Positions 16,055 to 53,489 of a DNA stretch of 64,000 nt are shown here, one piece after another. Below the pieces are notes generated by a model. That model searched no databases, was not told where the DNA came from, and was given only the letters and a program-made list of their open reading frames with translations. The DNA is from Panax quinquefolius. Taxonomy: Eukaryota > Streptophyta > Magnoliopsida > Apiales > Araliaceae. The stretch is taken from contig CM035163.1 in assembly GCA_020205615.1 (NCBI GenBank), positions 51,247,899-51,311,898 of the forward strand. Direction: 5' to 3'. Made by a program: the position numbers and the translations under genes. Numbering within the stretch: position 1 is the stretch's first letter; each line of letters begins with the position of its first letter.

Positions 16055-16225
16055 CATGAATAGTACTCTGGGTGAATAGTACCCCATGAATAGTACTTCA
16101 AGAATAGTACCCCGTGAATAGTACTTTATGAATAGTACTCGTGAATAGTACTTCATGAATAGTACTTTATGAATAGTACTTTATGAATAGTACCGTATAA
16201 ATGAATAGTACTCATGGACAGTACT
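16055..16225. repeat. GTGAATAGTAC tandem repeat, LTR of B
   Basis: About ten degenerate units (ATGAATAGTACTTTATGAAT and similar), an expanded version of the array at 13497-13612. Confidence 0.8.
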
Positions 16226-16594: not shown

Positions 16595-16603
16595 CTATTT
16601 ATA
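16595..16603 (-). promoter_or_regulatory. LTR TATA box, element B
   Basis: The complement reads TATAAATAG. The same word lies at the matching place of the other copies (22426-22434, 31023-31031, 38249-38257, 48774-48782, 59103-59111). It marks the likely U3/R promoter. Confidence 0.6.
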
Positions 16604-17762: not shown

Positions 17763-19697
17763 ACCACTGGTCATGATCATGTCAAACATCTGTCCATCTA
17801 TGCACTACGGGCCCAATAGGACATTCACCACATCATTTGTTTGTAACATTACAGGTCATGATTATACCAATACATAATTCCTGGTCGTAATCATACCAAT
17901 CAACAGTCCATCGATGCACTACGGGCCAAAGATGACTGTCAGTACAATATAAGTATGATGATGATGACAATAATATAAAGAATCAATCAAGTGAGATCAT
18001 AACATAGATTCAATTTCAAGAATAAGATTCATAAAGATAACTTGGACAAAGAAAAGAAATTAAATTACATTGTGAATAAAGACTCATGAATAATACAAAG
18101 ATGAATAGTACCCATAAATAGTACTCCGACATGAAAAGATTAAAATTTAATAAGAATGTTCAGACCAATATTCCAACAAAATGATATTAGATGAAGCGCA
18201 AAACTTAAGAAATTTCTAATCATTTTAGGAATTATAGAAGCAATACTTACCATAGTAAGTTTAAATTTAGGAATATGAAATGAAATATTATCACTTAAAT
18301 GATATAGAGTATGAAAAAAATGATATCCCTTATGAGTATGGAAGGAAATAATATCATTTACGAGTATTGAAAGAAAATAACATTCTTTACGAGAAAAATA
18401 ATATCCTTTACCTTAGTAGGAAAGTAGTTCTAACTGGAATAACGAAGACTAGGTTGAGGAAATCTGGCACTGCTATCAACACTCAAAATATCCTTATACT
18501 CACAAGAAATACGCTCAATATTATAGAGAGAAAATTTTCTGATTCTGGTGTGAGTTTCATTGTTTAAATAAGCAACCTATTTATAGAAAAATGCTAGCAC
18601 ACCACTTCTAACAAATTTTGCACACGGATGATTTAGCAGCACACACATTTCAAAACAAAGATGTTCAAAACCAACTTCCTCACTCCACCCCTTTAATCAT
18701 ATGTTATTTGAAATAAAAGAATTCAAATTCAATTTGCTCTCTTCCTCCTTATTTTATTCTTATACCATAAATTTATTATAATAATATTGTCATTTAAATT
18801 ATAAAATTATACTATTATATTATCACATTATACTATTATAATGTAATATTATAATAATATATTTGAATGAATATTTTATCGGAGAAGATAATTAGGGTTT
18901 CATAGAAAAATATAACAACTTTCAGCAAATGTTTCATTTTAAAATTCCTCTATTTATATCAAAATTGAAGAAATATTTACTTATCATATTCATCAATTAT
19001 TTACAATTCTTCAATAATTATTTTTAATTAATATTATAGATTCACAATACATGACAATCAGATCGTTCCCAGGAAAGATGAGTCTTTCCGATAAGGATTT
19101 CTCCTTACTGGCGCCCAATTATATATCCTAACCCCTTTCCTTGACAGAACTTTCTATACATTATCAATAATACTATCTAATAATATCATTTCAATAATAT
19201 GAGTTACTGTTTCGTGATAATTATTGAATCAATAATGTAAAATACTATTCAATTATCACTGTAGCAATTATTGCATCAATAATACGAAAGACTATTTAAT
19301 TTTTACTGTATCAATTATTGAGTGACTTCTTACGTAAGAATCAATAATCAGAGATACTGTGCAATACCATGTGCTACTTTGAAACCACACGTATTACTGT
19401 ACTTTTATCACCGGGTATTTTAACAGTTTAACGGTAAAAGTTTTGCCGTTATTTTTTATAAAAAGGTTATTTCTGTAGCTTTCTATATCCGACAGTTATT
19501 CTGTTATGTGGTCCACCAATGATTGCACCGTTTTACAATATTCTCCGATAAAACGAATATTTTATGGTAACTTGTTTACTTTGTAAAATTTGCACATATC
19601 ACCCATAACCATAACATTATATCAAATCACACCTTATTATTCAAAATAATAGTTAGAGAAAATTAAATCTTTATTAATAAAAAGTTGGGGTTTTATA
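17763..19697 (-). mobile_element. Element C, 3' LTR (partial)
   Basis: Matches the 5' LTR from about 37440 onward (GGTCATGATCATGTCAAACA at 17768 and 37442; CTAGCACACCACTTCT at 18592 and 38266). The first 600 bp are missing because element B sits at the left edge. The right end (GGGGTTTTATA) is a decayed GGGGTCTTACA. Confidence 0.75.
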
Positions 19698-19698
19698 A

Positions 19699-19712
19699 AC
19701 TCCCCTCCTTAT
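19699..19712 (-). promoter_or_regulatory. Element C polypurine tract
   Basis: The complement reads ATAAGGAGGGGAGT, next to the 3' LTR. The same tract precedes the 3' LTR of elements T and S. Confidence 0.7.
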
Positions 19713-19751
19713 GAAATTTCGCCCTCGAAATTGATGTGCGTACCTAGTATG

Positions 19752-20269
19752 TCAAAGAGGTGAGTACCTTGATTTCATTTCAGATTCTAACTCCCAGGTC
19801 ATTTCCTCAATATCGTGGTTTGTCCATAAAACTTTGAGTTGAGGTATAACCTTTGAGCGTAGAATATATTCCTTCTTATCTAAGATTTTAACAGGTACCT
19901 CTAATTCAATAATGTGATTTGGGTCTTCCATATATTTATGTAACATAGATATGTGAAAAACGTTATGAACACGAGACATACTTGGTGGTAAGGCGAGTCT
20001 ATAAGCCATAGTTCCTACTTGATCGAGGATTTTAAATGGACCAATAAAGCGAGGGTTTGAGCTTTCCTCACTTCGTCGATTCTTGTTTCTGAAATAACAC
20101 CTTCTTGTACTTTATTCTTCATATTTATCAGCTCCGGGTCTATAGCTTGAGCAACTTTAACTTTATCGATTAAATTCAGTTTTACTCATATATTTGTCAT
20201 CTTCACGTGGGTCCCTAGAGTCTTTAACTCTATCTCCATCCTTTATAAATCATACAAAATGGATCTTTG
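19752..20269 (-). pseudogene. Element C integrase C-terminus and chromodomain
   Basis: 85 codons from Met 20009 carry the end of integrase (AYRLALPPSMSRVHNVFHIS) and a complete-looking chromodomain core LKVLWTNHDIEEMTW. Upstream (20010-20269) are pieces of the integrase zinc-binding region (LIDKVKVAQAIDPELINMKN, conceptual), fused directly to the C-terminal part, so the DDE catalytic core is missing. Chromodomains of this family steer integration to heterochromatin. A tailing EMKSRYSPL is the normal Tekay ending. Confidence 0.75.
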
Positions 20270-22555
20270 TGTGATGCCCCTAAAATAGGTATACGAAACC
20301 CATCTTGGGTCGCCAGATACACGGTACAGAATTTAAATACAAACTTCATTTATACAACTGTCGTGCAAAATATGACTACATATTTACTGTGAGTTTCAAT
20401 ACAAATATTGTAACGTATATATACGACAATATTCATACTCAAATTATTATAATGTCATATAAAGTACAACAACAAATATTTCAAGTCTTCAAAGGAACAA
20501 GAGAAGATTTATGTCCTCCTCATTCTAATGGAGTGTATTTTGACGCTTTCAAAGTTGGGTTCTCATCACCCTATTGTTGTTCACCAAAATAAATTATTAA
20601 GTGATGTATAATATACGACACACCCATCTTAAGTCTTCAATACAATTATATTTTGCATGTCATGCAGTTTTATAATGTATTGAGAAACTTCCACAGTCTC
20701 AGACCATTACATTATTCTCGTCATATCCCCAAGCCGACCCAAATTTACACTCTTAATACACGAAAAGGAATTGTGAAGAAAAAAGGTGAGCACAAATAGC
20801 CCAGTAAAGAATATTATGACTAAGATAATTAATTTATCAATAGCCTTCATCAGTAATAAATCAGATATTTAGAACATATGGTAGATGATAAAAGTTTTCA
20901 ACCATAATTGCAGCGGAATCAACAATCCATTAGAAGAGTCAAGTAGAACATAATGTCTACTATCCTCTGCAAATTAAAAGTCCATCATTAATATTTCATT
21001 ACTGTAATACCCATCAACAATTTTTTTTGTACCCAGTACAAAGAGAACTTTAATCACCTGTCTTCACCTGAACCACCAAAGATTATAGTTAAATTCAAAA
21101 CTCATATTTATAATCATGTAAATCAACAGTTTCTCCTTGCCACAAAGGCTTAATATAATGTTCACTCATTATCCTTACCCCAAAGGCTAAAGACGTTCAA
21201 ATGTAATAACAATGATCATACCAATCAGTTGTTTATCTTTTCACTATGGGCTAAAGATATTCAACTATAAAACCAATGGTCATGATCATACCAATCAATT
21301 GTCTGTCAATGCACTACGACCAAAGATATTCAACTGTAAGACCAATGGTCATGATCCTGCCAAGCACATCATCGAATTATCCATGCACTACGGGCCAAAG
21401 ATATTCGTTAGTATCACCAGTGGTCATGATCATGTCATACACCTGTCCATCTTTGCACTACGGGCTAATGAGGATTTTTACCACATCATTTGTAACATTA
21501 CAGGTTATGATTATACCGATACATAATTCCTGGTCATAATCATACCGATCAACAGTCCATCTATGCACTACGGGCCAAAGATGACTTTCATTACAATATG
21601 AGCATGATGATGCTGACAATGATATAAGCATTCAATTAAATGAGATCAAGGATAAATTTTAAAGATTTATAATTCAATTTATCCATAGTTTAAGAATGTC
21701 CAAATGGTTAACATGATACTATTTTTTGGAGTAAAATTCAAGAATAATATTCATGTAAAAATAAATTGGACAGAAAAGAAATCAATTTTTGTCGTGAATA
21801 GTACCTCGGGTGAATAGTGCCCGAGTGAATAGTACCCCGTGAATATTACTTCATGAATAGTATCACGTGAATAGTACCCCGGCAGGAAAAGATTAAAATT
21901 TAACAAGAATGTTCAGAAAAATATCCTTGTGAAACGATGCTAGATGATGCGCAAATTTCAAGGATATTCTACTAATTTCAAGGAGTATAAAAGCAATACT
22001 TATCAACATGAGTGTAGAATTTGGAATACGAAACGAAATAATATTACTTACATACTACATAGTATGAAAGAAAATATTATTTCTTACGAGTATTGAACAA
22101 AAATAATATCCCTTACAAATATTGAACGAAAATAATATTCCTTACGAATATTGAATGAAGATAATATCATTATCCTTACGAATATTGAACGAAAATAATA
22201 TTCCTTACGAATACAAAAAATAATATCGTAAGAGAATATGAAATAAATAATATCCCTTACCTTAAAAGGAGAGTATTTCTGACTGGTATAACGGGGATAT
22301 TCTTTAAGAAAACTTGCACTATTTTCTACACTCAAAGCTTTCTTAAACTCTAAAGAAATACGCTCAATATTATAGAAGAAGAATTCTCTGATTCTGGTGT
22401 GGTTTTCAATTCTAAACTAAGCATCCTATTTATAGGAGAATGGCTCGATACTATTTAGAAAATAAAATCATGGACTACACAGTGGAAAAAATCACAGATG
22501 ACGTTCGACGCGAATTCATTGAAAATTTTTAATTTTACTATGTTGCACTATGCAA
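20270..22555 (-). mobile_element. Truncated LTR inserted in element C
   Basis: Starts TGTGATGCCCCTAAAATAGG on the plus strand and runs through the same landmarks as the other Tekay-like LTRs (GCACTACGGGCCAAAG repeats, GTGAATAGTAC array at 21790-21880, complementary TATA box 22426-22434). It then stops short of the GGGGTCTTACA terminus: pol sequence of element C resumes near 22556. The upstream half of U3 is deleted. Between 22080 and 22260 a 30-60 bp unit (TTACGAATATTGAACGAAAA) repeats several times. Confidence 0.6.
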
Positions 22556-22662
22556 CACTATTCGTCATCTACCACGTTCACTTTTCCAAGAAGATATTGA
22601 ATGATATGGTCGTAATCTTTCAACAGCTCTAACCAACGACTTTGGCGCATATTAAGTTCGTT
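22556..22662 (-). pseudogene. Element C RNase H end fragment
   Basis: The complement contains RWLELLKDYDHIIQYLLGKV followed by NVVDD, the end of gypsy RNase H (family form: a Trp-Leu-Glu-Leu-Leu-Lys-Asp-Tyr block, then ANVVADALS). It is fused directly behind the RT fragment. The same fusion is seen in elements T and S. Confidence 0.6.
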
Positions 22663-23103
22663 CTAGGTGAAAAAATATTTTAGGCTTTTGGAGTATATTA
22701 GGATGTCATCAATAAAGACAACCACGAAATGATCCAAATATTTCTTGAATATTTGGTTCAGCATGTCCATGAAGGCAACATGGGCATTGGTCAATCCTAA
22801 AGATATAACTAGAAATTCATAATGCCCGTATCGAGTTTTAAAAGCAGTCATTGGAATGTCATCAGTTTTAATCTTTAACTGATGATATCCGAAACGAAGA
22901 TCGATCTTTGAGAAGAATTTAACAACTTGTAACTGGTCAAACAGGTCATCAATGCGAGGTAACATGTACCAATTTTTTATGGTGACATGGTTTAACTCCC
23001 GATAGTCAATGAAAAGTCGCATACTCCCATCTTTCTTCTTTACGAACAAAATAGGCGCGCCCCAAGGAGATATACTAGGACGAATGAAACCAATGTCTAA
23101 CAA
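22663..23103 (-). pseudogene. Element C reverse transcriptase fragment
   Basis: 146 open codons with [55 protein letters not shown] and the catalytic FIDDIL (22699-22716), the palm of Ty3/gypsy RT. The frame ends just after the active site ([11 protein letters not shown]), where a deletion joins it to the end of RNase H; the thumb, connection and most of RNase H are gone. The active-site residues are intact. Confidence 0.85.
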
Positions 23104-23120
23104 CTCATGTAGTTGGGTTT

Positions 23121-23780
23121 TTAACTCCTGAAGTTCAATAGGAGCAATTCGATATGGGGTTTTGGAAATGAGTTTTGTACCTGGTTCAAGGTCAATACAA
23201 AATTTGATTTCATGCTCTGGGGTAGGCCAGGAAGTTCTTCGGGAAATATGTCAGGAAATTCATTAACAATAGAAATATCATTCAAATTTAACGTATTTTT
23301 GTTTAAATCCATGATATGAGCTAAGAAAGCTTGACATCCATTTTTCAATAAACGAATGGCTTTATGGCTTGATATGACGGTGATTAATTTTAGTGGGTTG
23401 GTTGCTTTAATTCGCATAATAGGTTGATTAGGAATATGAAAACTAACGACCTTATGAAAACAATCAATTTTAGCATGATTAGTAGTTAACCAATCAATCC
23501 CTAAAATCACATCAAATGCAAGTATCTTCAAAGAGATGAGATCAATAGGTAATGTAAGGGTGCTGATTTGAATCAAACAAGATTTATAAACAGTGGATGT
23601 AATGAAGGTTTCTCCTAAAGGAGTTTCAATAGATAAGTCAAAGTCTAATTTCTCAGGAGTCAAGTTCAAACGTTGAGCACAATTAGGTGAAATAAAAGAG
23701 TGGATAGAACTGGTATCGAATAAGGTATAGACTTCGCAAGTGTTTATGATTAGCTTACCCGTGATAACTTCGTTCGGGTT
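23121..23780 (-). pseudogene. Element C protease and PR-RT spacer
   Basis: 182 codons from Met 23669 plus upstream codons. The aspartic-protease region reads VYTLFDTSSIHSFIS near 23690-23735; the usual D-T/S-G triad is DTS here. Then follow LNLTPEKLDFDLSIETPLGE, FDVILGIDWLTTNHAKIDC (the family's GMDWL block) and [20 protein letters not shown] leading into RT. The frame shifts near 23160 before RT. The family enzyme cleaves the gag-pol polyprotein. Confidence 0.8.
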
Positions 23781-24232
23781 CCTCGCTTTTTAGGAAGTCA
23801 CAAAAAATGCTCTCCCTTGAACCACCGACTTTGACTTGTCTGGGATAGCCTTTGGTGTCACCATCCCAGCTGGACTTGACTTCGCTGCATGAAAAAATTG
23901 AGCTAAGTGACCTTCCTTTCCGTAATTGTAACACACTTTGGGTTATTGCGTACAGTTTGGACTGATGTGTCCCTCTTGTCCGCATTTGTAGCATACGACC
24001 GGTAGTTGTTCTCCTTCCTTATAAACGAGTGCTGGTGCTTCCGCCGATGTCTTTCCATTTTCATTGTTGAATCTTCTCTTCTTAAAGTTGTTCCCACTTA
24101 GTTCACCTCTCCTATTATCTTAGCCATGATTACCACCGAAGTGGTTACCATTTCTGGCATGATAATTTCCTCCACAATGGTTATCATTGTTCCGATAGTT
24201 GTTGCCACCGGTACGATTATTATCGTGTTGTT
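23781..24232 (-). pseudogene. Element C gag C-terminus with zinc knuckles
   Basis: The correct frame contains CYKCGQEGHISPNC (about 23955-24000), a CCHC knuckle. About ten codons later a decayed second knuckle reads CYNYGKEGHLAQFF, with two Cys lost. Upstream is an N/G-rich stretch (RNGNHFGGNH). The segment is cut at 24232 by the hAT-like insertion and continues at 35856 on the far side of the stack. Confidence 0.7.
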
Positions 24233-24357
24233 TAGACCTGGAAAATGGCTGGGCTCATTTAACTACCAGCCAAAATGGCCCGATTTTTTGGGCTAAAATA
24301 TGAGGCCTGCATGTCTGCCCGCCAAATTTACCGGATTTTTTTTTTTAACAAAACAAT

Positions 24358-24430
24358 GCTCCTTTTGAGAATCAAACTCTAAACCTCCCCACTCCTTAAA
24401 CAAATGCTCAAACCAACTGAGCTACAAGGA
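24358..24430 (-). repeat. tRNA-like sequence, left arm
   Basis: The complement is 73 nt: TCCTTGTAGCTCAGTTGGTT (box A and D-arm GCTC...GAGC) through AGAGTTTGATTCTC (box B-like) to AAGGAGCA. The first five acceptor pairs (TCCTT/AAGGA) hold and the anticodon stem is poor. It is a tRNA-derived relic, not a functional gene. It is inverted relative to the copy at 24848. Confidence 0.55.
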
Positions 24431-24847
24431 TTTTCATTTTAAAGTCACTATATACCTTACTACATCTCTTTTTAATACTTTTTGTTTTAAAACAAACCTT
24501 GTTTTTTGACTAAAAAATGCAAATATCACCCCAAAAAAATAATAATTTAAGATAACAAATAAATTGTAAAAAAACTTAACTGATCATCTCATTTTTTGGC
24601 GACATGGGATGGACTAAAGAGTATAAATGATCTAACAATCATTAATAAAGAGAAATTGATGCATGTTAAATATATAACATACATATACATATATACTCCA
24701 CTATAGCTTATATATATATATATATATATATATAAGCTTTAAATTGGTGGGTCTTCCTTCATCTTAGCATGAACTTTCAATTTGCACGAAGGCTTGGATA
24801 GTTTATGCTAGTAGGAGTGCCGGGTAAGTGACTTTATAATAAAAAAA

Positions 24848-24922
24848 TCCTTGTAGCTTAGTTGGTTTGAGCATTTATTTAAGGAGTGTGAGAGGTCTAG
24901 AGTTCAATTCTAAAGGAGAGCA
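24848..24922 (+). repeat. tRNA-like sequence, right arm
   Basis: TCCTTGTAGCTTAGTTGGTT, then GAGCATTTATTTAAGGAGTG and AGAGTTCAATTCT. About 75 nt and clearly the inverted partner of 24358-24430. Together they form the inner part of the foldback arms, separated by about 420 bp of unassigned AT-rich sequence. Confidence 0.55.
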
Positions 24923-27569
24923 TTATTTATTTTTTTTTAAAAAGCCCGCAGGCCGGTGTAACAACCCGAGAATTTAGAAAATTATTTAAATCATAAATGA
25001 TGGATTAGAGGTTAAATAATAAACCTAGACAGAAAATAAGTGTATGGATTTGGCATTTTTGAAGGATTTTTATGGATTTAAAAAATTTTGTGGTGAATTA
25101 TTCAGGATTAAGTGTATATGTGTATATGTTCTGTGTGTATTGTCATGTATGTGTACAGAATGTGGTTAAGGGTCAAGGGTTGACCAGATAAATTATATCA
25201 GTGTCCAAACCCTAATATTATATTAAGAACGTCAATGTTCAATTAGAAAACCCTAGCGATTAATAAGAAACCCTGATACCGGCTCTGAAAACCCTAATTT
25301 CAGTTCTGGGAATCCAAAAACCTAATTTAGATCTCAAAGACTTAAGTGTATTGATTATGAGATTAATTAAGGGTAAAGCCTAACGAATTAGTTAGAAAAC
25401 CCTAATTTTAAAATTTGAAACCCTAATTGTTCCGTTAAAAACCCTAATATACAATTATGGACCTAATTGTTAAATTAACAATTTTAATTAGGATATATTA
25501 ATCCTAATTAGCAAGCTAGAATTTATGATTAGGAAATCTTAGTATAATTAGAGAATCCTAATTATAATTTAGAAATATTAATTTTCTATTTTGAAAACCT
25601 AAATTGGAAATCCTAGAAAATTGATTTTTAAAAACCTTAGATTTTAACCCTAAGGGTTAAACCCTAAGGGTCAAACCCTAAGGGATGAATCCTAAGGGTT
25701 TGCACAAGTTACCAATTTGCCATTAAAATTGAAAATCAAATGACTATTTTGCCCTTTTGTGCAATTCTTTATTAGTTAGCTTGCAAATCTTGTCATATAA
25801 TGGAGTTGGTGGCCTATAATAGATTGACTATGTGCTCAATATATCAGCAATCCCAGCCACATTTCATCAGCTATACATTGAATCAAAAATAAAAGTCAAA
25901 AAATAAGAAAACTTTCTTACTTTACTTAGCAAACTATCCAAGACCTTCTTTCTCTATAATTTTCGAGATGGGGAGTGAGAATGAGTGAGAAGATAAGCTA
26001 ACATCACCATTTAGCTTTTCAATAACAAATCAACAAGATCAGATTCAAAGATCTAAGCCTAGAAGGTATAAACCCTAAATTTTGTGATTTGATGTTATAT
26101 GTTGTGTTTAGATGTTTAAAGTTATGTATTAGGATGTCATTGAGTGATCTGGGTTGTTACATCCTAGATACATAACATATAGATGCACGAAAATCAAGTT
26201 TTCAAAATTGATCTTGAACCTTAAAAATGTTGTCTGACAAGCATATGTCAGGGCCCAAAGATCCTTATCTGTTAATGATTTGTTGTGTTTTAAGTTATAG
26301 ACTTGTTCTATGCCATGTAGACTTTGATCTGAACCTTGAATCAAGCCCATATCATTTTTATATTGCAAGTTATTTAGGGTCAAAGTACGTTGACCGACAT
26401 TGACTATTTGTTTCTGGGTTATCCAAATTTTTCCAGGAAGCTTCTCAACATCTTTATGATCACTGATCTTGCTGCTGTTAAGTGATTTGGCCATGTTTGT
26501 GTTATGGATTGGTAGATTGACATGAAAACTATATAGTAAAGCCCTTAGAACAACCAGTTCTTAATCAGGATCTAAGTTATAAGAGGTCAAACTTGGGTTG
26601 ACCGTCTGCCTATGAACATTTCTGGGTTTTCCAGAAATGTTCAAGAACAGTTTTTCTGGCCTACTTTGATCGGCTTAAATCATAAGTTGGTGTTGTTATT
26701 TGACTGAACTAGTGTTATACTGTTGTTCTATGACATAAGTTGTGAAGCCCCCAAATTCAGGTACTTGAAACCCGAATTCAGTGCTTCACGATACCATTTC
26801 TTTGAGCGGAATAATAATAATAATGTCATAAATATCAAACTTAATTTACATATCAGAGTTTTCTAAATCCCAGGTACGCGACCTTAAAATATTTCATTAC
26901 ATGATAGATAATAAATAACATCATCTTATTTAAGTCTAGCTATTACATAAGATAACACAAACTTATTCTCGATGACTTTCCTTTCCCTTTATTCTCGCAG
27001 AGCCCTCCGGCCAATCAGTCATACTTAATCGAAAACATTTAATTTAAGCAAGGATGAGCATTTGAGTGCCCAACAAGTAATAACAATTATAAATATTAGT
27101 TTGGAAGGATTAAATGTTTTCTTTGTACTACCCTTCTACAACAAATCAAAAGTTGTGAAAGTATCTGAACCAATAATAATAACATAACAACTCTCTATCA
27201 AATTTTGAAACTACGACCGCCTATAAATAGGGTTAAGGTGACATACTATGAACATTATTCTCAATTTTCAATAGGTTTAGCGTAACTTCATCCGCAAACC
27301 GTATAACTTACTGCACGGGGTGATCAAATGTTATGCCTGTATTGATCAATACTACATGCAAGAACGATATTATCATTCACTCTGTCCGCCTTAGGCGCAT
27401 AAAAATTTTCCTATGTTCGGGATGTTCATACTTAGTTTGGAATCTGAACCAAAACAATTTGATTGGATACAAAAAGGTTTTATCATAATCAACAACATTT
27501 CTAAATCTGTGTTTAGCTGGTCAAATAGCTTAGACGACTCTTTGTTATCGTATACATACTGGGGTCAAT

Positions 27570-27570
<1 letters not shown>

Positions 27571-27611
<41 letters not shown>

Positions 27612-27706
27612 ACATGTGTTTAAATACAATGATTATTCAAGTGGGGACACTTGAATAACCATGTTTAGACATTAACGAACAGAATATATATATATATATA
27701 TATATC
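27571..27706. repeat. (AT)n microsatellites in LTR Q
   Basis: Two (AT)n runs at about 27571-27609 and 27684-27706, with AT-rich sequence between. Confidence 0.85.
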
Positions 27707-29407
27707 TGAATTATAATATAGTACCATGTTGATAATCAATGATCAGATATAATATATATAACAATAGGGTTAATAATCTAATACAATAATAATATAATTC
27801 TGAAACTTTTTTACTCATGTCCATTGCATAAAGAAAATGCAAAGGTAAAGATACTTGCTCGATAATAATTGGAGTAAGTATAGAAAACTTGCCTGGTCTG
27901 TTGTTTACACAACTTAGTTCTACCTTTAATTCAACGACTTATCATTTATAAGATAGTTCTATTGATTAGAATAACATATCATAACACATCATAATGTTAT
28001 TTATAGTCAATACATAACCTAATCACATTGTCACATAGTTATATCAGTCATTAAGACACAAACAAACACTTATACAATCAAACTATATAGGTTTGGATTA
28101 ACTTCAGTAACATTTCGGTGTACCGACGGCTTTATCGGAAAATTATCGAGTTTAAAACTCTAGCCTGTATCTTAAATATTATTCTGGATACTTCAAATAT
28201 CAACCATAGGACTTATAATAATTTTTAATTAATTATTATAATTTATCATAATTTTTCAAACTCTGGAATCATTATTAAATGATTTAAATATTAAATAATT
28301 CTATTATCATTAATATTTAAATAATATTAAAGTATTAATGCAACCCTTTCAAAGTTATTTTATAATAACTCAAAATATTTTAAAGTATTAATTATTACCC
28401 TTAAATAATTTTTAAAACATTTAAAAATCATTTTTAAACAATTACCATTAATATTTAAATATTAAGGTATTAATCACTAAAATATTAAAAGTCATTTATA
28501 ATAAATTAAAATATTTTTAAACCACTTATATCCTTTTAAATCAATAAAATCATTTTTAATCTATTTATTTAATATTATTATTAAATAAATTTAATATCAT
28601 TAATATTAAATAATTAATGAAATTTATTTTAAAATATTGAAAGTTACATTTTATAACTTAAAATATTATTAAATACCTTATTATCATTTAAAATAATTTT
28701 AAATATAATAAAATCATTTTTAGTTAATTTATTTAATGCATTTATTAAATAAATTAAATATTAATAATATTCAAATAATTACTAATATTTATGGAAAATA
28801 TATCAAATTATTAAAAGTTAATTTTTATAACTTCAAATAATTTTTAAAACTAATTTTGTAATTTTTAGAATTTATTTACTATTTTAAATGATTTTTAGAA
28901 ATTAAAATAATTAAATTTAATAAGTCTGTTGCTATAGCCTTTAGCGACAGTAAGTGTCGCCTTAGGTGTTCTTGAGGCTCAAGAACACTGACATGCAGTT
29001 ATCGAGTGACCGACTTTGACCAGTGATCATTCACTGTGTAATGTGTTTCTGGGCTAACTATCGATCACAGCTTGTAGAACTAATGTAACACCACATCATT
29101 CAACAATAAACATGGCCAAATATCATAACACAAAAGAGATCTAAGCATTGAAGTGGTTGTCGGACACATTTCTTCATTTTGGGTTACCTGAAAATGAAGA
29201 ACGACTGAAAGCAAATACTTTTAGGTTTCCACTACTTTCTGTTCATGCAATGTTTTTGTTATTTGATAGTTATAGATTGTAGACAACATGTAGTACTACA
29301 GATCTATTACAAAGCATCAACAGAATCAACATTTAGAACCTGGTCAAACCATGTCAGTCGACCTGTTCATATGTTTTCTGGGTTACCCAGAAATCAGAGA
29401 ACATGCT

Positions 29408-31952
29408 TGTGACGCCCCCAAAATTAGGTATACGTCACCCATCTTGGGTCGCCACTTACATGGTACATAAATTCAAATACAAACTTAATTATACATCTGT
29501 CGTGTAACATACGACAATACATAAACTGAGAGTTCTAATAGGAATATTGTCATTTAGACAATATCCATACTCAAGGAGTCCTCATTACATTTATCATGTC
29601 ACACTATTTAATGTAATAGTGAGGACTACTAATGCTATCTTCGGGACCATCACTCTTTTCCCCGACTCATCCCAAATATATTATCATTTCAAAGAGAATA
29701 AAGGTGAAAGAAAGGGTGAGCTCAACTAGCCCAAGAAGAAATATTATAACTAAGATAATGCGTAATAAATTATCAATAGTCTTCAACAATGTTAAACCGA
29801 TAAAATACAATAGACAACCGCTTTAATCTGCAATGAATATGCAATCCATTAAGAGAGTCAAGTAGAAAATAAAATCTACTATCTTTTAGGTTTTAAAAGG
29901 TTTTCATCAATTTTATCACTAAGACTCGGCTTTAATGAATAAACCACAATATCTAATCATCCTCGTACTACTGGCCAAGGATTTTCATCAAATTATCAAT
30001 GGTCATGACTATACCGAATCACCCCTCGGTCATAATCATACCAAAACTATCCATCACCGCATTACAAGCCACCGAGGACTTTTGTCACATCATTTATATC
30101 AAGCCACGATTATACCGAATGATCCTCGTCATAATCATACTAAGTTCATCTATGCACGTAAGCCAAAGATAACATAATATAACATGAGGATGATGACAAT
30201 GACATAATAATTCAATAAAACAAGTTCACGAATTAATTTATTCGTGAACTAATAACGCCCAAATTGTCAACACGATCGCTTTGTAGAGTAAAATTCAAGA
30301 ATGATCGGAAGAATATTTCCATGAAAAGATATCGATGAAACGCAAATATCAAGGATATTCTACTAATTTCATGGAGTATAGAAGTCAAAGTTTTAACCAA
30401 CCGGGTATAATAAAGAATGAAATAACAAAAGAAATCACCATGCATGCGATTGATCATACAGCAAAAGTTATTCCAACAGAATAATAAATAACGGAACCGG
30501 TCCCAAGCGTAAAACGCATGCATGTGGATGTTCCAATGTATAATAATAAAGATTTTAACCAGTGTCCTGTAAAAACACATGATGTGATGTTCCAATGTAA
30601 TAATAATAAAGACAGAACCGAATCCTGTAAAACACACGCATGTGATGTTCCAATGGAAAATAAAATAATAGAAGAATATCACCAAGTATAGGAGATTCCG
30701 CATATACAAAGTTATTCCAATGTAATAAATAAGAATGGAATAATATAAGGATTTCACCAAGTATAGGGTATTCCGTATACATACAGTGTCATGTATAGGG
30801 TATGCCACTTTTACAAAGTTATTCCAATGTAATAATAAAGAATGGAATAACAGAAGTTCTCTTCAAAATAACACCCCTTACGAGTACAACAAATAATATT
30901 CCCTACCTTAGAAGAGCTGAATATTGGAAAAGTGAAGTAGCAAAATACTTTTCTTCTTTCTCTCTATAGTTTCTCTCTAGAGTTTCAGTGAATTCGTAAG
31001 AAATAATGAAGGAATGAGCTTTCTATTTATAGAAAAACTGAGGGTGGCTCTTGGTCTTAACGAAGGGTCAAAATGACTCTTGGTAATATCAAGAGACAAC
31101 TACTATTTCATGAAGGGGTAATTAACCTTGGAACACCGAAGAGGCGCTTAACTCTTGTAATATTGAAGGACAACTACTATTTGCGAAGGGGTAATTACTA
31201 TTGACGAAGGTAATTACTTATATTGACGAAGGTAATTACTATTCACAAAGGTAATTACTATTCACAAAGGGACTCTTAGATGATGACATATATTTTCCCA
31301 TAAAAAATAATCAAACTTACCACAAACGTCTCATAATGACTCTTTATATACATCAAGGATTGAATAAATATTACCACAAATCATTTTATTTTTAATCAAC
31401 ACATATTTAATCTTTCAACAATTATTAATCATTTATAACTTGTCGTCTCAATTAATAATTTAATACTATAACATATTATACGATGATAATGTGACAATAA
31501 TTGAATCAATAATATAAGAGATATGATGCAAAGAATTCTTCAGAAGTAATAGTTGAGCATAATGAGTGACTTCTCACGTAAGCATCAATAATCAATATCG
31601 TGTGCTACTATACAACTACGCCAGACATCGCATTTTACTACCGGGTAGTTCAACAGTTTTGACCAGAATAACACCTCTGCAAGTTATTTTTATAGAAAAA
31701 TAATTTTGTCGCTTTCTAACTACGACAATACTTCCGTTGTAGGGTCCACTAATGATTGAGCCGTCGCATTTAATATTCCCGACAAAAAGAATATTCTCCC
31801 ACCAAACGAATATTTTATAACAACTTGCTTACTTTGCAAAATTTATAAATATTACCCACAACTATAACATTATATCAAATTTATTCCATAATATTCAAAA
31901 AAAATATTTATAAAAAAAATTCATCTTTATTTATAAAAGTTGGGGTCTTACA
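29408..31952 (-). mobile_element. Solo LTR G (2.5 kb, Tekay-like) with perfect TSD
   Basis: Starts TGTGACGCCCCCAAAATTAGG, ends AAAGTTGGGGTCTTACA, flanked by ATGCT on both sides (29403-29407, 31953-31957). Landmarks match the LTRs of elements B, C and T. It lacks the long GTGAATAGTAC array but carries a 58-67 bp tandem array (30470-30860) and a complementary TATA box (31023-31031). No internal coding region, so it is a solo LTR left by recombination. It is the youngest layer of the stack. Confidence 0.85.
30470..30860. repeat. 58-67 bp tandem repeat in LTR G
   Basis: Units carry GATGTTCCAATGTAATAATA or GTTATTCCAATGTAATAA, with starts near 30530, 30589, 30648, 30715 and 30822. Related to the array at 48959-49400. 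Confidence 0.7.
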
Positions 31953-34020
31953 ATGCTCGACTTGGCTAGTTTGACCAGCCACTGAGTTCAATCAACTTGA
32001 TTAATTAGTGATCTAAAAGCATGTATCCACAGTACACATAACCAGCTATAACTTAGATGCAATAAAACTAACAAACAAACAACAACAAGCAAGATCCGAG
32101 GACACAAAGTCATTGTTAGACGCTTCTGGGCTAATCTGGGTTACCCAAAAAATCGAAAGTCATGGTCGGTCAATGGGGTTTGACCACCCATAACTTTCAT
32201 TCTGTGCACGACCTGAGGTAGATTCAAGTTTCAGAATACAGACCACATGTCATATTACAAGTTTAAACACTTAAACAACAAAAATGATAACCAGATAAAG
32301 ATCTATGTGGTCTGACATTCGGTTGTCAGACCACTTTTGAAAATTTCTCAGATTTTGTAAAAACTTAAATTCGAGTATCTAAGTGTTATAGATCTGAGTT
32401 ATAACAACCCAGATCACTCAATAACATCCTATTACACTACTTTAAACATCTAAACACCAAGATTAACATGAATCAAAAGGATTTCTAAGTTTAGGGTTTT
32501 ATACCTTTCTATGAACCAATCCTTGATTCTAGCTTTCTGATCTGCTAGAAGTGATAGTGGGGCTTGATTAGGGACTGGTCTAGCAAGGTAATTTTGGAGG
32601 TTTGAAGTTGAGAGAGTCTTGGTTGAGTGTTGGTGTATAAATGAGCAAGTTAGTAACCTTTCTCTCTCTTTGATCTTATATAACATGGTGTAATGCTCAT
32701 GGTTGATCATGTCTAGCAGATTTTTATTGATTAAAGGCTATTAATAGACCACATGGCTAGCTAGAGTTGGTCACCAACTAAAGTTATGGCAAGTTTTACA
32801 AGTTATCTATTAAATAATGCAAGAAGGGCAATTTGGTCATTTAGCTTTTACTTTTAGTGGCAAGGTTGACAATTCATTCTAACCCTTAGGATTTAACCCT
32901 AAGGTTTCCTAAGCTCTAAATCTAGAATTGTGTATTAGGAGCAAAATGGGAATCTTAGTTTCTAGAAATGTGAATTAGGGTTTCCTAATTGAATTAGGTT
33001 TCCTAATCACTTTAGGCTTGCAAAATAGGCTTTGTAAAATACTAATTACCATTAAGCTTTCTAAATTAGTAATTAGGGTTTCTAAACATTAACTAGGGTT
33101 TACCTAATTAACATTAAACATAATAATGGTAATTATTTACATAAAACATAAATTAACAAACATTGCAGTCATATTTGACTCTGTATTATAGTTTATTAGT
33201 AGTGCTAGGATTTGTACTGTTTTACTATAACTGTTCCACACATTAACATTACACACATATAAGACATGTTTATATTATCGAAATATAAATAATATTATAT
33301 TATTATTCTCATCCCTTATTCAAAAATCCGCATATAGGTTTTGAATTCATATCTGATATAACCTTCATAGATACCATTATTAATTAAGTTGAAATAATTA
33401 ACTTAATTAATATAATAAATACATATCATAATATTCATATCATATATACAATAATCATATCTTCATGGAAAATAAATAATAAATATTTTATTACAAGATT
33501 AATTTATTATAAAAATATAATCTACTATGATCAATAATTCTAAAAAAGAAATTAGTTACATCTAATAAATAATTTTATTTATCAGATATACACATATTCT
33601 TTACTTTGCACATATTCCCACCCTTATCTATATAAAAAAAAATTATTCGCAAAATTTCTTATTGAAAATTTTGGGTTATTACATAAGTACTACCACCAGG
33701 AATCATAAAACCACTTAGAACATGACCTGAGACTGGATTAATCAAGGTTTAAAAAGCAACCCTTGTAACTGCTTGACTTTTTCGGCAACCTAGAAACTCA
33801 AGAACACGTCTGACAAGATTTTCTAGGGCTTTAATCTTGCTGTTATGATGCAGGATGGACATGAAACTTGTTAATTCTTATAGTATTACATAAGTACTAT
33901 AACATTGATGTGCTAGACTGCCCAGAAAACATTAAGAACTAAGATCAAATCTTGGTCAAATATAGTCTCTCGATGTCTGACATGAAGTTCTAGCCTTTGC
34001 TCAAGAACACTCAAGAACAC

Positions 34021-34046
34021 CTATAGCGACAGTTTTGTCGCTATAG
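34021..34046. repeat. TAGCGACA hairpin in LTR P
   Basis: CTATAGCGACA, four-base loop, TGTCGCTATAG: a perfect 11-bp stem. A third half-site TTTAGCGACAG follows at 34051. A decayed partner is in LTR Q near 28930-28965. Confidence 0.8.
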
Positions 34047-35855
34047 GGCCCTTTAGCGACAGTTATTTTTCAAAAAATATTATTTTATTAAATAAATAGA
34101 AAAAAATAGTTTTTAATTATTAAAAATACATAATAAATTTCTAAAAATTATTTTAAAGCATAAAATGGGTTTTAATAATTTTGAATATATTTCATAATAT
34201 TTAATATTTTTGGAATATTAATGGTAATTAATTTATTTAATTATAATATTAAATAAATTATTTAAAAATGATTTTAATACATGAAAAATTATTTAAAAAT
34301 ATGTTATGGTGTTAGAAAATATTTTAAGTTATTTTTGATGACTTTTAATATTTTGTGATGAATTTCATTAATAATTTATTACTAATGGTAATTAATTAAT
34401 TTAATAAATGAATTAAATAAATTATGGAAAAATAGAATTAATGATTTAAAAATCATATAAAAATGAATTAAGTGTTATAAAAATATTTGAAGTTATAAAA
34501 TATAACTTTTGATATTTTGTCATGAAAATATTAATATTTTTAATATTAATAGCAATTATCGATAATGGATTTAATCGCTTAAAAATTATATAAATATGAT
34601 TTTATGGTTTTAAAATACTTTGTGATATTATAAATATATTATAATATTATGTTATGATTTTCATTAATATTTAATATGAAATAAATATTAATGATAAAGT
34701 AATTATATGGTATTTAAATTATAAATACGATATTAATGATTGAAAAATCATGATAAATGGTAATAATTATCTAAAAATTATTACGAATTTTTGAAAAATA
34801 TTTTTTTGACTGAAATAAATTATGTAAGATAAATTATGTAAGATTATTAGGCTCGATAATTATCCGACTAGACCGTCGGAATGTCGAAATTGTGCCGGGT
34901 TCAACTCAGACTGAAATAGTTTGACTTAATACCGAGTCTTAAGTAGTTTATGGATTGATAGAGTTATGTGTTATGTGTTTAGGTTATTCTATGATTATAT
35001 ATAATAGTATTATACTGTGATGATATTATTCTAACTTGGAAATCAATATTATTAATATTAGGTCTTCAGTTAAAGCTAGATAAATCACGTAACAGTAATC
35101 AACCGAACAGTCAAGTTTTCCTTAACTCATCTTCGAGTTGTTTATTCAATTATACTTATGGATAATCATTGTTGATTACCATGTCTATGAATTGTTAGAT
35201 CGTACTCTGTGCATATTGCATGTATTCATCAGGTATAAAATGCTGATCACCTTCATTACCATTCGGTCCAGATATAATTGATATATTCATGTACAATGTT
35301 CGTTCAGCTATGAAAGTTTATTCATGCTAGTTCACAATTATATTGTAGAATTTTAGCTTGCTTATTGTTCAAAATCTTTCTATCATGACATATCCTTAAT
35401 TTATTGAAGTTATACTTGCTAGGCAAACCTGTTGCTCACCCTTGCTATATCATGATAAACACTTGCAGATTAGGCGAATACTTCGGATACAAGGAAAGGT
35501 CAAAGACAAGTACAACTTGGGAAATATGTGTGCAGTTAGATTTGTAACAGTAATGTATGATAATAACTTTGTTTGTTAGATAGAATATTGATTCAGGTAT
35601 TATGTGAAGGTTTTCAACCTTGGAGATAGTGTGTAATATTTATCGTATAAATAATTTATGTTTATATCTTTCGCACTAGTTATAGAAATAGTATATCAGA
35701 TCCGTGGTGATTTGGGACCCGGATCTGGGGATGCTACAGCCGGGTCGGGCCAAATTTGGGTCGGTCTGTTTTCATGGGCTAAAAATGTTAATCCCAAAGC
35801 CCAATTTTTACGAGCTAGCCCAACCCGCGAACCCGAACCAATTTTTCCTGGTCTA

Positions 35856-36653
35856 ATGTTGTTGGTCATTCTCTTTTGGTTGAAAAGTCTCATTATCTCG
35901 CTCTAATAATTGAGCCATATTCACAACATCTGGATACAAACAAAGATTATGAGAAATGAGGTATTGACGAATTTCAGGTTATAAACCTCTCAAAAACATT
36001 TGTGTCAGTCGCTCCTCATTATCCACCACATGGGATGCAAACCGGGATAACTCCGCAAACTTGGCTTCGTATTGTGATAAAGTTATATTTTTTTGTTCTA
36101 GTTTGATGAATTTCACCTCCTTCATGTGACGAATACTTTCTGAAAAGTACTTTTCGTTGAACAATTCTTGGAACTTCTCCCAAGACATCTTAAGTGCGGA
36201 AAGATGAGTACGTTTTACGAATTCCCACCAGTAATATGCCTCTTCACGTAACATGAAGGTGGCAAAGGGAGCCTTTTGATCTTCTGTGCATCCCAAGACA
36301 TCAAATATCTTAGTGATCTGCTTAATCCATACTTCTACCTTAAGTGTCTCTGGCTATCCCAAAAATTTCGGCGGTCCCAACTCCTTGAATTGCTTAGCAG
36401 TGACCAGTCGTAAGTTACCATTATTTCCACCTGCATTTTGAACATGAGTCTCTCTCATTTGGTATTGCATGAATTGTAAAAAGCTCCTAAACATCCCATC
36501 GTTCATCATTTGGTCGATGTTGTTGTTTACAGGAAGATTATTTCCTTCTTGATGCACATTATCCTCGTTATTGATTGGCGGTGACTCAATGGTAGCATGT
36601 GCTCCATTGCTTATCACAAAATTTTCAGATGTCATTCTCAAATACTGCCACAA
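35856..36653 (-). pseudogene. Element C gag N-terminal part
   Basis: Met 36653 (or the internal MTSENFVISNGAHATIESPP) opens 99 codons with NDGMFRSFLQFMQYQMRETH and RLVTAKQFKELGPPKFLG. After a frameshift near 36350 comes the retrotransposon gag core from 36296: APFATFMLREEAYYWWEFVK, SWEKFQELFNEKYFSESIRH and EVKFIKLEQKNITLSQYEAK. The sequence runs to the hAT duplication at 35856 and continues beyond the stack at 24232. The family makes the structural capsid protein. Confidence 0.8.
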
Positions 36654-36817
36654 AACAAGGGTTAATTAAAGAAATTGACATGCCACATATTATCCCTATA
36701 TTCCGACCGACCAATTAAATAACAAATAAGCTTAGCTATGACACACTAGCGAAGAATTTACTCATCTCTCCCCTCCTAGTTCTAATCCCAAATCTCCACC
36801 AGAGATCATATCCCTAA

Positions 36818-36830
36818 GCTCTGAAACCAA
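36818..36830 (-). promoter_or_regulatory. Element C primer-binding site
   Basis: The complement reads TTGGTTTCAGAGC, one base from the tRNA-iMet site, separated by one base from the LTR. Confidence 0.75.
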
Positions 36831-36831
36831 C

Positions 36832-39409
36832 TGTGACGCTCCCAAAATTGGTCCACACAACCCATTCTGAGTAGCCAAATACATGGTACAGAAATCAAAT
36901 ACAACTTCATTAATACAACTGTCGTGCAAAATACGACAACACATACGCTATGAGTTTTAATACAAATATTATCTCGTAGACAATATCCAAACTCAAATAA
37001 AGTTCTTATTACAATTATTGTCACACTATTTTATAAAATAGTGAAAAATACTATAATAATTATCTTTAACCATTACTCCACTCCCCGACTAGTCCCAGTT
37101 ACATTCTCACTTCCTGAGAAGAACAATGAAATCAAAAGGAAAAAGGTGAGCTCAACTAGCCCAGTAAATAATATTATGACTAAGATAATGAAGAAAAATC
37201 ATCCTTAGTCCTCAACAGTGAAAAATCTGATAGAATACAATATGCAACAAATATTAGATCAACAACTGCATTGAAAATAGCAATCCATTAGAAGAGTCAA
37301 GTAGAGCATGATATCTACTATCTTCTATGATTTTAAAATTCCATCATCAATATTTTATCCCTGTAACACCAATAAATAAATATTTCAAATCAACAAATTA
37401 TCCATGTACTACGGACAAATGATATTCGTTTGTATCACTATTGGTCATGATCATGTCAAACATCTGTCCATCTATGCACTACGGGCCAAAGAGGACATTC
37501 ACCGCATCATTTTTCTGTAACATTACAAGTTATGATTATATCAATACATAATTCCTGGTCGTAATCATCCCAATCAACAGTCCATCGATGCACTACGGGC
37601 CAAAGATGACTTTCAGTATAATATAAACATGAGGATGATGACAATGATATAAAGAATCAATCAAGTGAGATCATAACATGGATTCAATTTCAAGAATAAG
37701 ATTCACAAAAGATAACTTGGACAAAGAAAAGAAATTAAATTCTGTTGTGAACAGTACTCATGAATAGTACCGTATGAATAGTACCTATGAATAGTATTCT
37801 GACATGAAAAGATTAAAATTTAATATGAATTTTTAGACCAATATTCCAATGAAATGATATTAGATGAAGCACAAAACTTAAGGAATTTCTAATCATTTCA
37901 GGAATTATAGAAGCAATATTTACCGTAGTAAGTTTAAATTTAGGAATATGAAATGAAATAATATCACTTATATGATATGGAGTCTAAAAAAATGATATCC
38001 CTTACGAGTATGGTAGGAAATAATATCATTTACGAGTATTAAAAGAAAATAACATTCTTTATGAGAAAAATAATATCTTTTACCTTAGTAGGAAAGTAGT
38101 TCTAATTGGAATAACGGAGATTATATTGAGAAAATCTTGCACTGCTATCAACACTCAAAATATCCTTATACTCACAAGAAATATGCTCAATATTATAGAG
38201 ATAGAATTTTTTGATTCTGGTGTGAGTTTCATTGTTTAACTAATCAACCTATTTATAGGAAAATGCTAGCACACCACTTCTGACAAATTTTGCACACGGA
38301 TGATTTAGCAGCACACATATTTCGAAACAAAGATTTTCAAAGCCAACTTGCTCACTCCACCCTTTTTTATCACATGTTATTTGAAATAAAAGAATTCAAA
38401 TTCAATTTGCTCTCTTCCTCCTTATTTTATTCTTATACCATAAATTTATTATATTAGTATTGTCATTTAAATTATAAAATTATATTATTATATTATCACA
38501 TTATACTATTATAATATAATATTATAGTAATATATTTGAATGAATATTTTATCGGAGAAGATAATTAGGGTTTCATAGAAAAATATAACAACTTTCGACA
38601 AATGTCTCATTCTAAAATTCCTCCATTTATATCAAAATTGAAGAAATATTTACTTACCATATTCATCAATTATTTACAATTCTTCAATAATTATTTTTAA
38701 TTAATATTATAGATTCACAATATTGACAACCAGATCGTTCCTAGGAAAGAAGGGGGTTTTTGATAAGAATTTCTCCTTACTGGCGCGTAATTATATAACC
38801 TAACCCCTTTTCTCGACACAAATTTCTAGACATTATTAATAATACTATCTAATAATACCATTTCAATAATATGAGTTGTTGTGTCGTGACAATTATTGAA
38901 TCAATAATATAAAATACTATTCAATTATTACTGTAGCAATTATTGCATCAATAATATGAAAGACTGTGCAATTTTTATTTTATCAATTATTGAGTGACTT
39001 CTTACGTAAGAATCAATAACCAGAGATACTATGCAATGTCGTGTCCTACTGTGCAACCACGCGTATTACTATACTTTTATCACCGGGTATTTCAACAGTT
39101 TAACAGTAAAAGTTTTGCCGTTATTTTTTATAAAAAGGTTATTTCTGTCGCTTTCTATATCCGACAGTTATTCCGTTATGTGGTCCACCAATGATTGCGA
39201 GCCGTCGTACGGATATTCCCGATAAAAAGAATATTCCCAGACAAAACGAATATTCCCTGAGAAAATGGATATTTTATGGCAACTTACTTACTTTACAAAA
39301 TTTGCACATATCACCCATAACTATTACATTATATCAAATCACACCTTATTATTCAAAAAACTATTTAGAGAAAATTAAATCTTTATTCATAATAACTTGG
39401 GGTCTTACA
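36832..39409 (-). mobile_element. Element C, 5' LTR (2.6 kb)
   Basis: Begins TGTGACGCTCCCAAAATTGG, ends ATAACTTGGGGTCTTACA. It carries a complementary TATA box at 38249-38257 and a short GTGAATAGTAC block near 37748-37790. The partner is 17763-19697. Right of it the sequence is Harbinger transposase, so the element inserted there. The right duplication would be CACAA (39410-39414); its left partner is lost. Confidence 0.8.
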
Positions 39410-39529
39410 CACAATACCTTCTAAAATAAGAGAAAGCATAAAATTTTTTCCTTACTTTAAGGTAAGTAATGAAAATTTCATTATTATCAGTGTTTTTGTT
39501 GTTATTTATCACCATTATATTGAATAAAA

Positions 39530-40269
39530 ATGTCTATTAATTCATTTAAGGATTTCATTAAAGCTATTGATGGTACACACATTCTAGCAATGGTAAAAGG
39601 ACATGATGTAAGCAGTTATCGTAATCATCATGGAAAAATATCGCAGAATGTATTAACAGTTTTGAATTTTGATTTCGAATTCATATATGTGCTTAGTGGG
39701 TGGGAGGGTTCATCTCATGATTCAAAAGTGCTAAGAGACGCTTTAACAAGAAGGAACAGACTTAATGTGCCACAAAGGTATGTACTTATCTTGTTTTTCA
39801 TTTTATTTGTTTGATATTAGATCCTACATTCCATAGTAATTTTTTAAATGGTATATAATTAGGAAAATTTTTCTTGGTGGATTGTGGATTTCCGAATTGG
39901 CGCCAATTTTTAGCTCCTTTTCGAGGTGTTCGATATCATTTTCAAGATTTTGTTGGCCAGGGTCGTGACCCCAAAAATGCAATCGAGTTGTTCAATCTTC
40001 CTCATGCTTCCTTAAGGAACTTAATTGAGAGAATATTTGGTATATTTAAATCGAGATTCACAATTTTCAAGTCTGCACCTCCATTTCCTTATAAAACTCA
40101 AGTAGAGCTTGTACTAGCTTGTGTAGGACTCCATAATTTTCTTCGTAAGGAGTGTATTTCAAATGAATTTCCTGTTGAACTAGATAACGAGTCTTCACTA
40201 TCTTCATCGTTACCACTCAATCAAGGAGATAATTTGGAACAAGTTTTTGAAACTCAAGAGCAAAAATGA
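39530..40269 (+). pseudogene. Harbinger transposase, C-terminal DDE part
   Basis: Exon-like part 1 (39530 to about 39777) has FKDFIKAIDGTHILAMV (first catalytic Asp) and LSGWEGSSHDSKVL (second Asp). A donor AG|GTATGT at 39776-39783 and acceptor TTAG at 39858-39861 bound an intron of about 84 bp. Part 2 runs to 40269 with FLVDCGFPNWRQFLAPFRGV, LRNLIERIFGIFKSRF (catalytic Glu) and CVGLHNFLRKEC, matching the DDE_Tnp_4 family. By hand count the canonical splice shifts the frame by one base, so it is probably dead. The N-terminal DNA-binding part is absent. The tail shows DMWRDVDHN, usual near the end. Confidence 0.85.
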
Positions 40270-40973
40270 GAGAATGCTAATGAATGGAGGACTGGTATAG
40301 CTTCTGATATGTGGAGAGACGTCGATCATAATAATAACAATGGCCGGTAACAAGGGTAATAGTTTTGAAATTCTTAAAAATTTTGAATTATTTTGAGTTT
40401 ATTTTGGTGATTATAAAGATGAGTGATTTTTGGTACCCAATTGTGATAAATTTTCTATAACTTGGTGGCAATTTACTCACATGTATGAAGTTTTGCGACT
40501 TTTGATCATATATATTTTCATTGTCATGTTATTTTGTGAAAAATAGAGTTTGGTATTCCTACTAAAAAACGTACGCATATGCGTAAATTATATATAGCTC
40601 AATGAAAAGTGAGCATAATTTTATGTTGCGTCTGTAGTTTTATATGTATCCGAGTATCCAAATGTATCATGAAATGAGTAGAATAATATGAAGGCTTTCA
40701 ATATATATAAAATCTCATACCATAATAATTTAATGAAATAATGAGATTTACTCTAGTTCATGAAAAAAGAGGGAGATGTTGTACACATGGGCCTATTAAC
40801 GATTGTTGCAAGATATATTAGAAGTATACAAAAGTCTATCACAGACTTGATAAAAAATTTATAAAAGTCTGTTACTTATTTAATGGAGTCTTTAAAATTC
40901 ATTAAAATTCACAAATTCTACAAAAGTCTGTCACTTAAAAAAAGTGTTTAAAAATCTTAATTGAATACACCCC
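40270..40973. other. Harbinger 3' non-coding end
   Basis: AT-rich, no open frame of note. Holds four forms of AAAAGTCTGT(C/T)AC between 40825 and 40935 in both orientations, likely subterminal transposase-binding repeats, and the terminal GAATACACCCC. Confidence 0.5.
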
Positions 40974-41280
40974 TCTAAATTCATTTGATATATTAGAGAA
41001 AGAGACAAAATTTTTTAATGGGAGGGACAAAGTTGACTTTAAATTTGTAACGTTAAGCTCATTTTTGAAAAAAAGAGTTCAGGGTGAAAATGGTATTTTG
41101 CAAAAAATATCAGGGACATTTTGGACTTTTGCCTATTTTTTATCATGATAATATTTAATGCGTGTTTGAATTTGAACATTTGGTTAAGACTTGAAAGTTA
41201 AATAAATTGTATTTAAAATAATAATTTTCATTTTAAACAAACAAAATTTTATATTACGTTTAAAATTCTAACAAAAAGTC
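40974..41280. other. Unassigned spacer
   Basis: Non-coding AT-rich sequence between the Harbinger end and a foldback element. I see nothing identifiable in it. Confidence 0.3.
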
Positions 41281-41570
41281 TAGGGGACCGGGTTTTGGGC
41301 GACCCACCAAATTTTTTATTTTTTATGACTCTTAAACAATTTATAATATTTATTGGAACATAAAATTTTACAGAATTCAGTGATTTAGGTGTCATTTGGA
41401 TACATGTAAAAAATAGGGTTGCACAAACTGTACAACCCTATTTTTTACATATATCCAAATGACACCTAAATCACTAGATTATGTAAAAATTCTAGTTCCA
41501 ACAAATATAAAAATTGACCAATAGCTAGACCGGTCTCCCAAAATCAATCCCCCAAAACCGGACACACCAG
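41281..41570. mobile_element. Foldback MITE with a long perfect stem
   Basis: Outer arms GGACCGGGTTTTGGG and GTCCGGTTTTGGGGG (complement of the right side) are imperfect. The inner arms TGATTTAGGTGTCATTTGGA and its complement near 41456-41475 extend for about 41 bp with two or three mismatches around a loop of about 11 nt (CACAAACTGTA). About 290 bp, no coding capacity. Confidence 0.7.
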
Positions 41571-41592
41571 AAAGACTGAAATTCTTGACACT

Positions 41593-42160
41593 TGTTGGGC
41601 CCTGATATTTCATGTACATGGTGGGCCGGACCGTTTGGGCCAAATCATTGAGTTGTATCCATTGGGTCTTAGAAGTATTGGTCCGGATCATTGGGCCGAC
41701 CCATTAGATAACTAAATATCTTCACCTGGACTTTGACCCGTGATGATGACAAAGATAACAGTTGACTGTTATCTCTGCCATGCATTAATGTGGATGGGAT
41801 CTAGTCGGCCGACGGTGGAGAACAGTGATGGGATGGAGCAGGTGAGTTGCTTGTAGTCGGCTGAGGTCACCAGTAGTGGGGGACTGTGTCAGATGGTAGT
41901 TGGTGGCACAAGAAACCGGACATGAGAGTATAAGTGGGCAAGGATATCACACAAGAAAAGGTAACTGATATTTCTCTCTCTAAAAATACTAGATATTATT
42001 TTCCTCCATTGTTAACCTTGTGATCGCCTGTACTGACTCTCACGCCGGAGCTATCCCCCGACGGTCGAAGCCGTCAAGCTTTTGGTGTTGTCGTGTTTAT
42101 TATGCAGGATCGGACGTTTCTTACATGATTGGGACATATGGAAGGATCATGGCGTTAACA
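41593..42160 (+). mobile_element. TAT element, 5' LTR
   Basis: Starts TGTTGGGCCCTGATATTTCA, ends ATGGCGTTAACA. The first part matches 57008-57330. Relative to the 3' copy it has an extra block (about 41849-41905, GTAGTCGGCTGAGGTCACCA and on) next to GTTG/CACAAG, so one copy has an indel of roughly 60 bp. Confidence 0.8.
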
Positions 42161-53480: not shown

Positions 53481-53489
53481 GGAATATTT

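Follow-up and report, generated by a model that had tools for sequence, protein, structure and literature searches.

How many transposable elements lie inside one another at 24225-39409 of a 64,000-nucleotide stretch of Panax quinquefolius DNA (hereafter the window), and how much of their history can be read from the scars that they left? The window is AT-rich and carries many related LTRs, and four nested insertions are readable in this segment, namely a hAT-type foldback in the gag region of element C, solo LTR P in the foldback, solo LTR Q in P and solo LTR G in Q (Table 1). All four target duplications reported by the initial annotation are present at their junctions, with 7/8 identical bases for the foldback and 5/5 for each of P, Q and G, which confirms the nest as an observation. 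The nesting of the five elements, from C through the foldback, P and Q to G, is backed by these duplications and by uninterrupted relatives within the window. The interpretation that came with it, a nest six deep, is partly supported: five elements and four tested insertions stand, whereas the sixth layer, a Harbinger remnant containing C, is represented by one junction only. Ordinary nested transposition in repeat-rich plant DNA, with the layers added in the order C, foldback, P, Q and G, very probably accounts for the locus.

Table 1. Features of the nest and its surroundings (positions in the window)
Feature	Position	Strand	Evidence
PIF/Harbinger-type transposase remnant, proposed host of C	39524-40266	+	DDE_Tnp_4 in two open stretches, Plant_tran in one
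Element C, 5' LTR	36832-39409	-	tRNA-Met-like primer site beside it
Element C, gag, right of hAT insertion	35864-36665	-	Pfam gag domain in 35982-36353
Element C, rest of gag, protease, partial reverse transcriptase	22666-24224	-	RVP_2, RVT_1; gag homology to 14025-14182
Element C, integrase C-terminal SH3-type domain	19755-20111	-	SH3_Tf2-1
Element C, 3' LTR, incomplete, cut at 17763 by element X	17763-19698	-	92.0% identity to 5' LTR over 1,931 aligned sites
Foldback, left 8-bp target duplication	24225-24232	.	GTGTTGTT
Foldback, right 8-bp target duplication	35856-35863	.	ATGTTGTT, 7/8
Foldback, left part, ending with GCCGG 24952-24956 (P duplication, left copy)	24233-24956	.	Inverted ends, arms, empty site in element X gag
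Foldback, right part, after GCCGG 35739-35743 (right copy)	35744-35855	.	Inverted ends, duplication
Solo LTR P, first part, ending with TAAGT 26736-26740 (Q duplication, left copy)	24957-26740	+	TG..CA ends, GCCGG duplication
Solo LTR P, second part, after TAAGT 33684-33688 (right copy)	33689-35738	+	TG..CA ends, duplication
Solo LTR Q, one part, ending with ATGCT 29403-29407 (G duplication, left copy)	26741-29407	-	Relation to P
Solo LTR Q, other part, after ATGCT 31953-31957 (right copy)	31958-33683	-	Relation to P
Solo LTR G, 2,545 bases, LTR family of element C	29408-31952	-	End-to-end alignment with three LTRs

According to Pfam, the parts of element C follow one another in the order gag, RVP_2, RVT_1 and integrase C-terminal domain, and its gag is split by 24233-35855; the integrase core was not found in the pieces scanned. 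From their likeness and the order of the parts between them, we infer that the two LTR sequences assigned to C belong to one element. On the right, the LTR of C is complete and its end (39409) borders immediately on the transposase region. This is the arrangement expected after an insertion and suggests that C lies within the Harbinger remnant. This outermost step did not hold up as firmly as proposed: junction 39409/39410 has no counterpart with which a duplication could be compared, the Harbinger remnant is seen on the right side of C and was not found on the left, and its relation to C depends on this single junction because the left end of C was not found in the window. To reach that end one would have to pass both element X (LTR 15070-17762) and a copia element whose own end is at 13101; searching 1-13101 with the initial 610 bases of the C LTR gave no match. 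Doubtful, yet to be taken seriously, is therefore the alternative that C never inserted into the Harbinger element, a deletion or rearrangement having joined its right end to a transposase fragment, so that the nest would be five deep. Besides the missing left end, it can draw on the N-terminal half of the Harbinger transposase, which was not seen (no Pfam match in five of the seven listed open stretches tried in 1-5463), whereas the complete LTR end at the junction argues for insertion. Elsewhere in the window, 41337-41516 forms a near-perfect palindrome with 85-base arms (86% complementary, spacer of 3 bases) and resembles a small foldback element, and 53485-53874 is a tandem array of 3.8 copies of a 103-base unit with 91% matches.

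Element C carries more than one stack, since element X interrupts its 3' LTR at 17763 and is itself cut by a copia-type element at 13101 (stack 6256-17762). Element X comprises the LTR named above, a gag remnant and a partial second LTR at 13102-13933; a second copy of the copia LTR was not found in 1-6400, bar one 17-base match. Inside C, a further LTR of its family occupies 20270-22442 and separates the RNase H end from the integrase C-terminal part; the outer end of this LTR (20270) is clear, and the inner one, near 22442, is lost. Three stretches, i.e. 19699-20262 in C, 47330-47854 and 60280-60800, are collinear from the RNase H end to the end of the integrase C-terminal part, the one in C running beyond a truncated LTR. 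C shares 406/485 bases with the 47 kb copy and 418/482 with the 60 kb copy, and the two copies share 467/516 with each other. All three seem too short to hold an integrase core, and C and the two copies may have in common an internal deletion, that is, may belong to a non-autonomous lineage that spread. As to the reverse transcriptase, 7,999 relatives were scored, and the named ones among the 120 listed are mostly flowering plants (Tanacetum, Cucumis, Gossypium and others); like the Plant_tran match, they point to plant DNA. Three listed relatives bear bacterial labels, namely Nesterenkonia (86%, the top identity among the matches listed), Aciditerrimonas and Salmonella, and these labels were taken for contamination.

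The LTR pair of C differs at 155 of 1,931 sites (K2P 0.0856; the 3' LTR is incomplete), and slower substitution rates than the one applied here would make the element up to 9 million years old. At 1.3e-8 per site per year, the rate used in the excerpted text of PMC7251063, its age comes to about 3.3 million years. As about one-quarter of nested elements show an LTR divergence above that of their hosts, according to the same excerpt (PMC7251063), this age is only an approximate upper limit for elements that inserted into C at its present site. Ages of P, Q and G, which the initial annotation had hoped to obtain from LTR divergence, are out of reach of this method because a solo LTR has no partner; C alone offers an LTR pair.

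The first insertion inside C is a foldback of 836 bases, which combines an 8-bp duplication with short terminal inverted repeats of 13 bases (12/13 identical), two hallmarks of hAT elements; its termini presumably resemble hAT ends as well. Its arms share 168 of 215 aligned bases with 40 gap positions and reach an alignment score of 150, as compared to a maximum of 51 in 200 shuffles, and the element looks non-autonomous. A tRNA-like look of the arms was dropped as a candidate, as ARAGORN reported no tRNA gene, and an Rfam search returned six microRNA-family matches, all below threshold (best 29.7 bits vs a gathering score of 90). For the empty-site tests, each flank of an insertion was placed separately on an uninterrupted relative within the window. 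The foldback site, tested on the gag of element X, closes with a residual of 0, and the alignment across the junction is ungapped.

P measures 3,834 bases without Q, and Q 4,393 bases without G. Both are flanked by perfect duplications at TG..CA ends (GCCGG and TAAGT, respectively) and lie in opposite orientation, with two blocks of similarity of 1,137 bases (69.6%) and 429 bases (72.3%); a global alignment gives 2,197 identical positions in 3,705 ungapped columns. They have their 5' end in common, their 3' ends are weakly alike, and within the window they match only each other. Complete elements bounded by LTRs of the P or Q type were not seen there, so that the status of P and Q as LTRs derives from ends, duplications and mutual homology. 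The empty site of P closes loosely in the left arm of the foldback itself (residual 9; right flank score 31 vs a shuffle maximum of 28). That of Q, placed in Q's own sequence, closes with a residual of 20 when flanks of 400 or 600 bases are used but not with flanks of 200 (residual 219), where the right flank scores 47 against a shuffle maximum of 50.

G differs from these two in that its family is known from the window: positions 1-2545 align end to end with the LTRs 36832-39409 (C; 1,700/2,341 aligned bases identical), 15070-17762 (X; 1,835/2,330) and 47855-50735 (1,977/2,425). Its duplication ATGCT is perfect on both sides at TG..CA ends, and its empty site closes in P with a residual of 1 base whether the flanks are 200, 400 or 600 bases long, the scores at 200 bases being near those of shuffles (58 vs 53, 65 vs 52). 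Among seven LTR sequences of this family whose CpG ratio was measured, G ranks first with 0.96, against 0.67-0.92 for the remaining six. A young layer should show this, although the margin to 0.92 is small. CpG decay was discarded as a clock for comparing layers, as the families differ in composition, and the within-family comparison alone was used.

By the primer-site and Pfam searches, P, Q and G appear to lack an internal region: no tRNA-Met-like primer site, the only type sought, occurs in them within 3 mismatches, and, of the 11 open stretches overlapping them that encode at least 70 amino acids, 10 have no Pfam family at its cut-off. Purine-rich runs that could pass as polypurine tracts, two in Q and two in G, count against solo LTRs. 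The three were also considered as miniature LTR elements with terminal direct repeats and rejected as such, there being one 25-base match in P and none in Q or G. A 21-base motif of P and Q gave 0 matches in viral_contigs.

LTR elements are copied through RNA and integrate leaving a 5-bp duplication, and hAT elements move by cut and paste. On this basis, the following sequence of events is proposed. C, a Ty3-type LTR retrotransposon, would have inserted first. A short non-autonomous hAT-type foldback, mobilized by the transposase of a partner, would then have entered the gag of C, leaving the 8-bp duplication. The foldback would next have received a long-LTR retrotransposon, of which solo LTR P is left after collapse. 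A relative, oppositely oriented, would have entered P and been reduced to Q, and finally a member of C's LTR family would have entered Q and been reduced to G. In each collapse, the LTRs at both ends of the element would have recombined to a single LTR between intact duplications. Such recombination within one element is favoured because the duplications match on both sides.

The order of these events had been called unambiguous, which goes too far. The insertions of P, then Q, then G must have occurred in this sequence. That the foldback preceded P is likely and not forced by the nesting, because an element that transposes by cut and paste could have carried P. Nor does nesting, which orders insertions only, give the order of the collapses to solo LTRs, and P may have been a complete element at the time Q inserted. 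It is unlikely that the foldback acquired P, and perhaps Q and G, elsewhere and entered the gag of C loaded: although the cargo of a cut-and-paste element can predate the outer insertion, and the duplications and empty-site closures are compatible with this course, a short non-autonomous foldback of 836 bases would hardly move with 3.8 to 10.8 kb of cargo. Had it done so, the spatial nesting would be right, the entry of the foldback into C before P wrong, and the age of C no ceiling for P, Q and G. We also see little chance that the locus is a hot spot where one long-LTR element after another targeted the LTRs of its relatives and collapsed in place; if true, both self-targeted insertion and LTR recombination would have been favoured here within a few million years.

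How much weight can the duplications bear in support of stepwise insertion of the foldback, P, Q and G? With the ends fixed, the probability of a chance duplication is 0.00067 for the foldback, 0.0014 for P, 0.0014 for Q and 0.0013 for G. With the ends freely chosen, little could be concluded from 5-bp duplications by themselves: identical 5-mers occur in 801 of 442,236 TG..CA pairs lying 2-12 kb apart in 22000-42000 and in 17 of 5,902 pairs with P-, Q- or G-like ends, sets to which the three real pairs belong by construction. Support for the insertions therefore comes from ends that are fixed by homology, i.e. by the full-length alignment for G, the inverted repeats for the foldback, and the common 5' end and long internal blocks for P and Q. 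Empty sites that fail to close in other copies had been named as the finding that would speak against the nest; no such failure is seen for the foldback and G, whereas for P and Q the closure is loose. When excision boundaries were scanned by +/-12 bases (625 pairs per site), the proposed bases did not come out on top (ranks 24, 370, 263 and 19); the scan has no power at the divergence of these relatives, so that placement at the level of single bases relies on duplications and ends rather than on relatives. That P or Q is no solo LTR at all, through misplaced ends or an assembly error in the stack, is very improbable, as the weakly similar 3' ends, the loose empty sites and a run of 100 N in the window (5464-5563) are set against perfect duplications at TG..CA ends, long common blocks and a nest interior without N.

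Stacks of this kind are common in plants, and nests of this depth have precedents. For bread wheat chromosome 3B, the excerpted text of PMC4290129 counts 30,199 nested insertions, at most 8 layers deep, as well as 3,998 solo LTRs flanked by duplications; as compared to the nests in that excerpt, the window has several solo LTRs in line inside a hAT-type foldback. The nesting of Q in P, i.e. in a relative, resembles the autoinsertion described in part of PMC6911290, in which elements, Tekay among others, are nested in their own family. LTRs are uncommon as targets in that account, whereas here both Q and G entered LTR sequence, whether already solo or still belonging to a complete element. Solo LTRs are taken as recombination products in the excerpt of PMC7251063, where longer LTRs are described as more prone to this recombination (citing Du et al. 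2012). At 3.8, 4.4 and 2.5 kb, P, Q and G are far longer than the median LTR of 552 bp given there, and following that source their length may have favoured recombination.

Taken together, the locus is a well-preserved but ordinary nest, in which three solo LTRs in line on a foldback make a nice case and no new kind, and no view of how such elements work is changed by it. It provides a compact record of at least five transposable elements and four insertion scars. As such, it can serve as a test case for nest-reconstruction software and may be used to ask whether LTR collapse and insertion order are separately datable.
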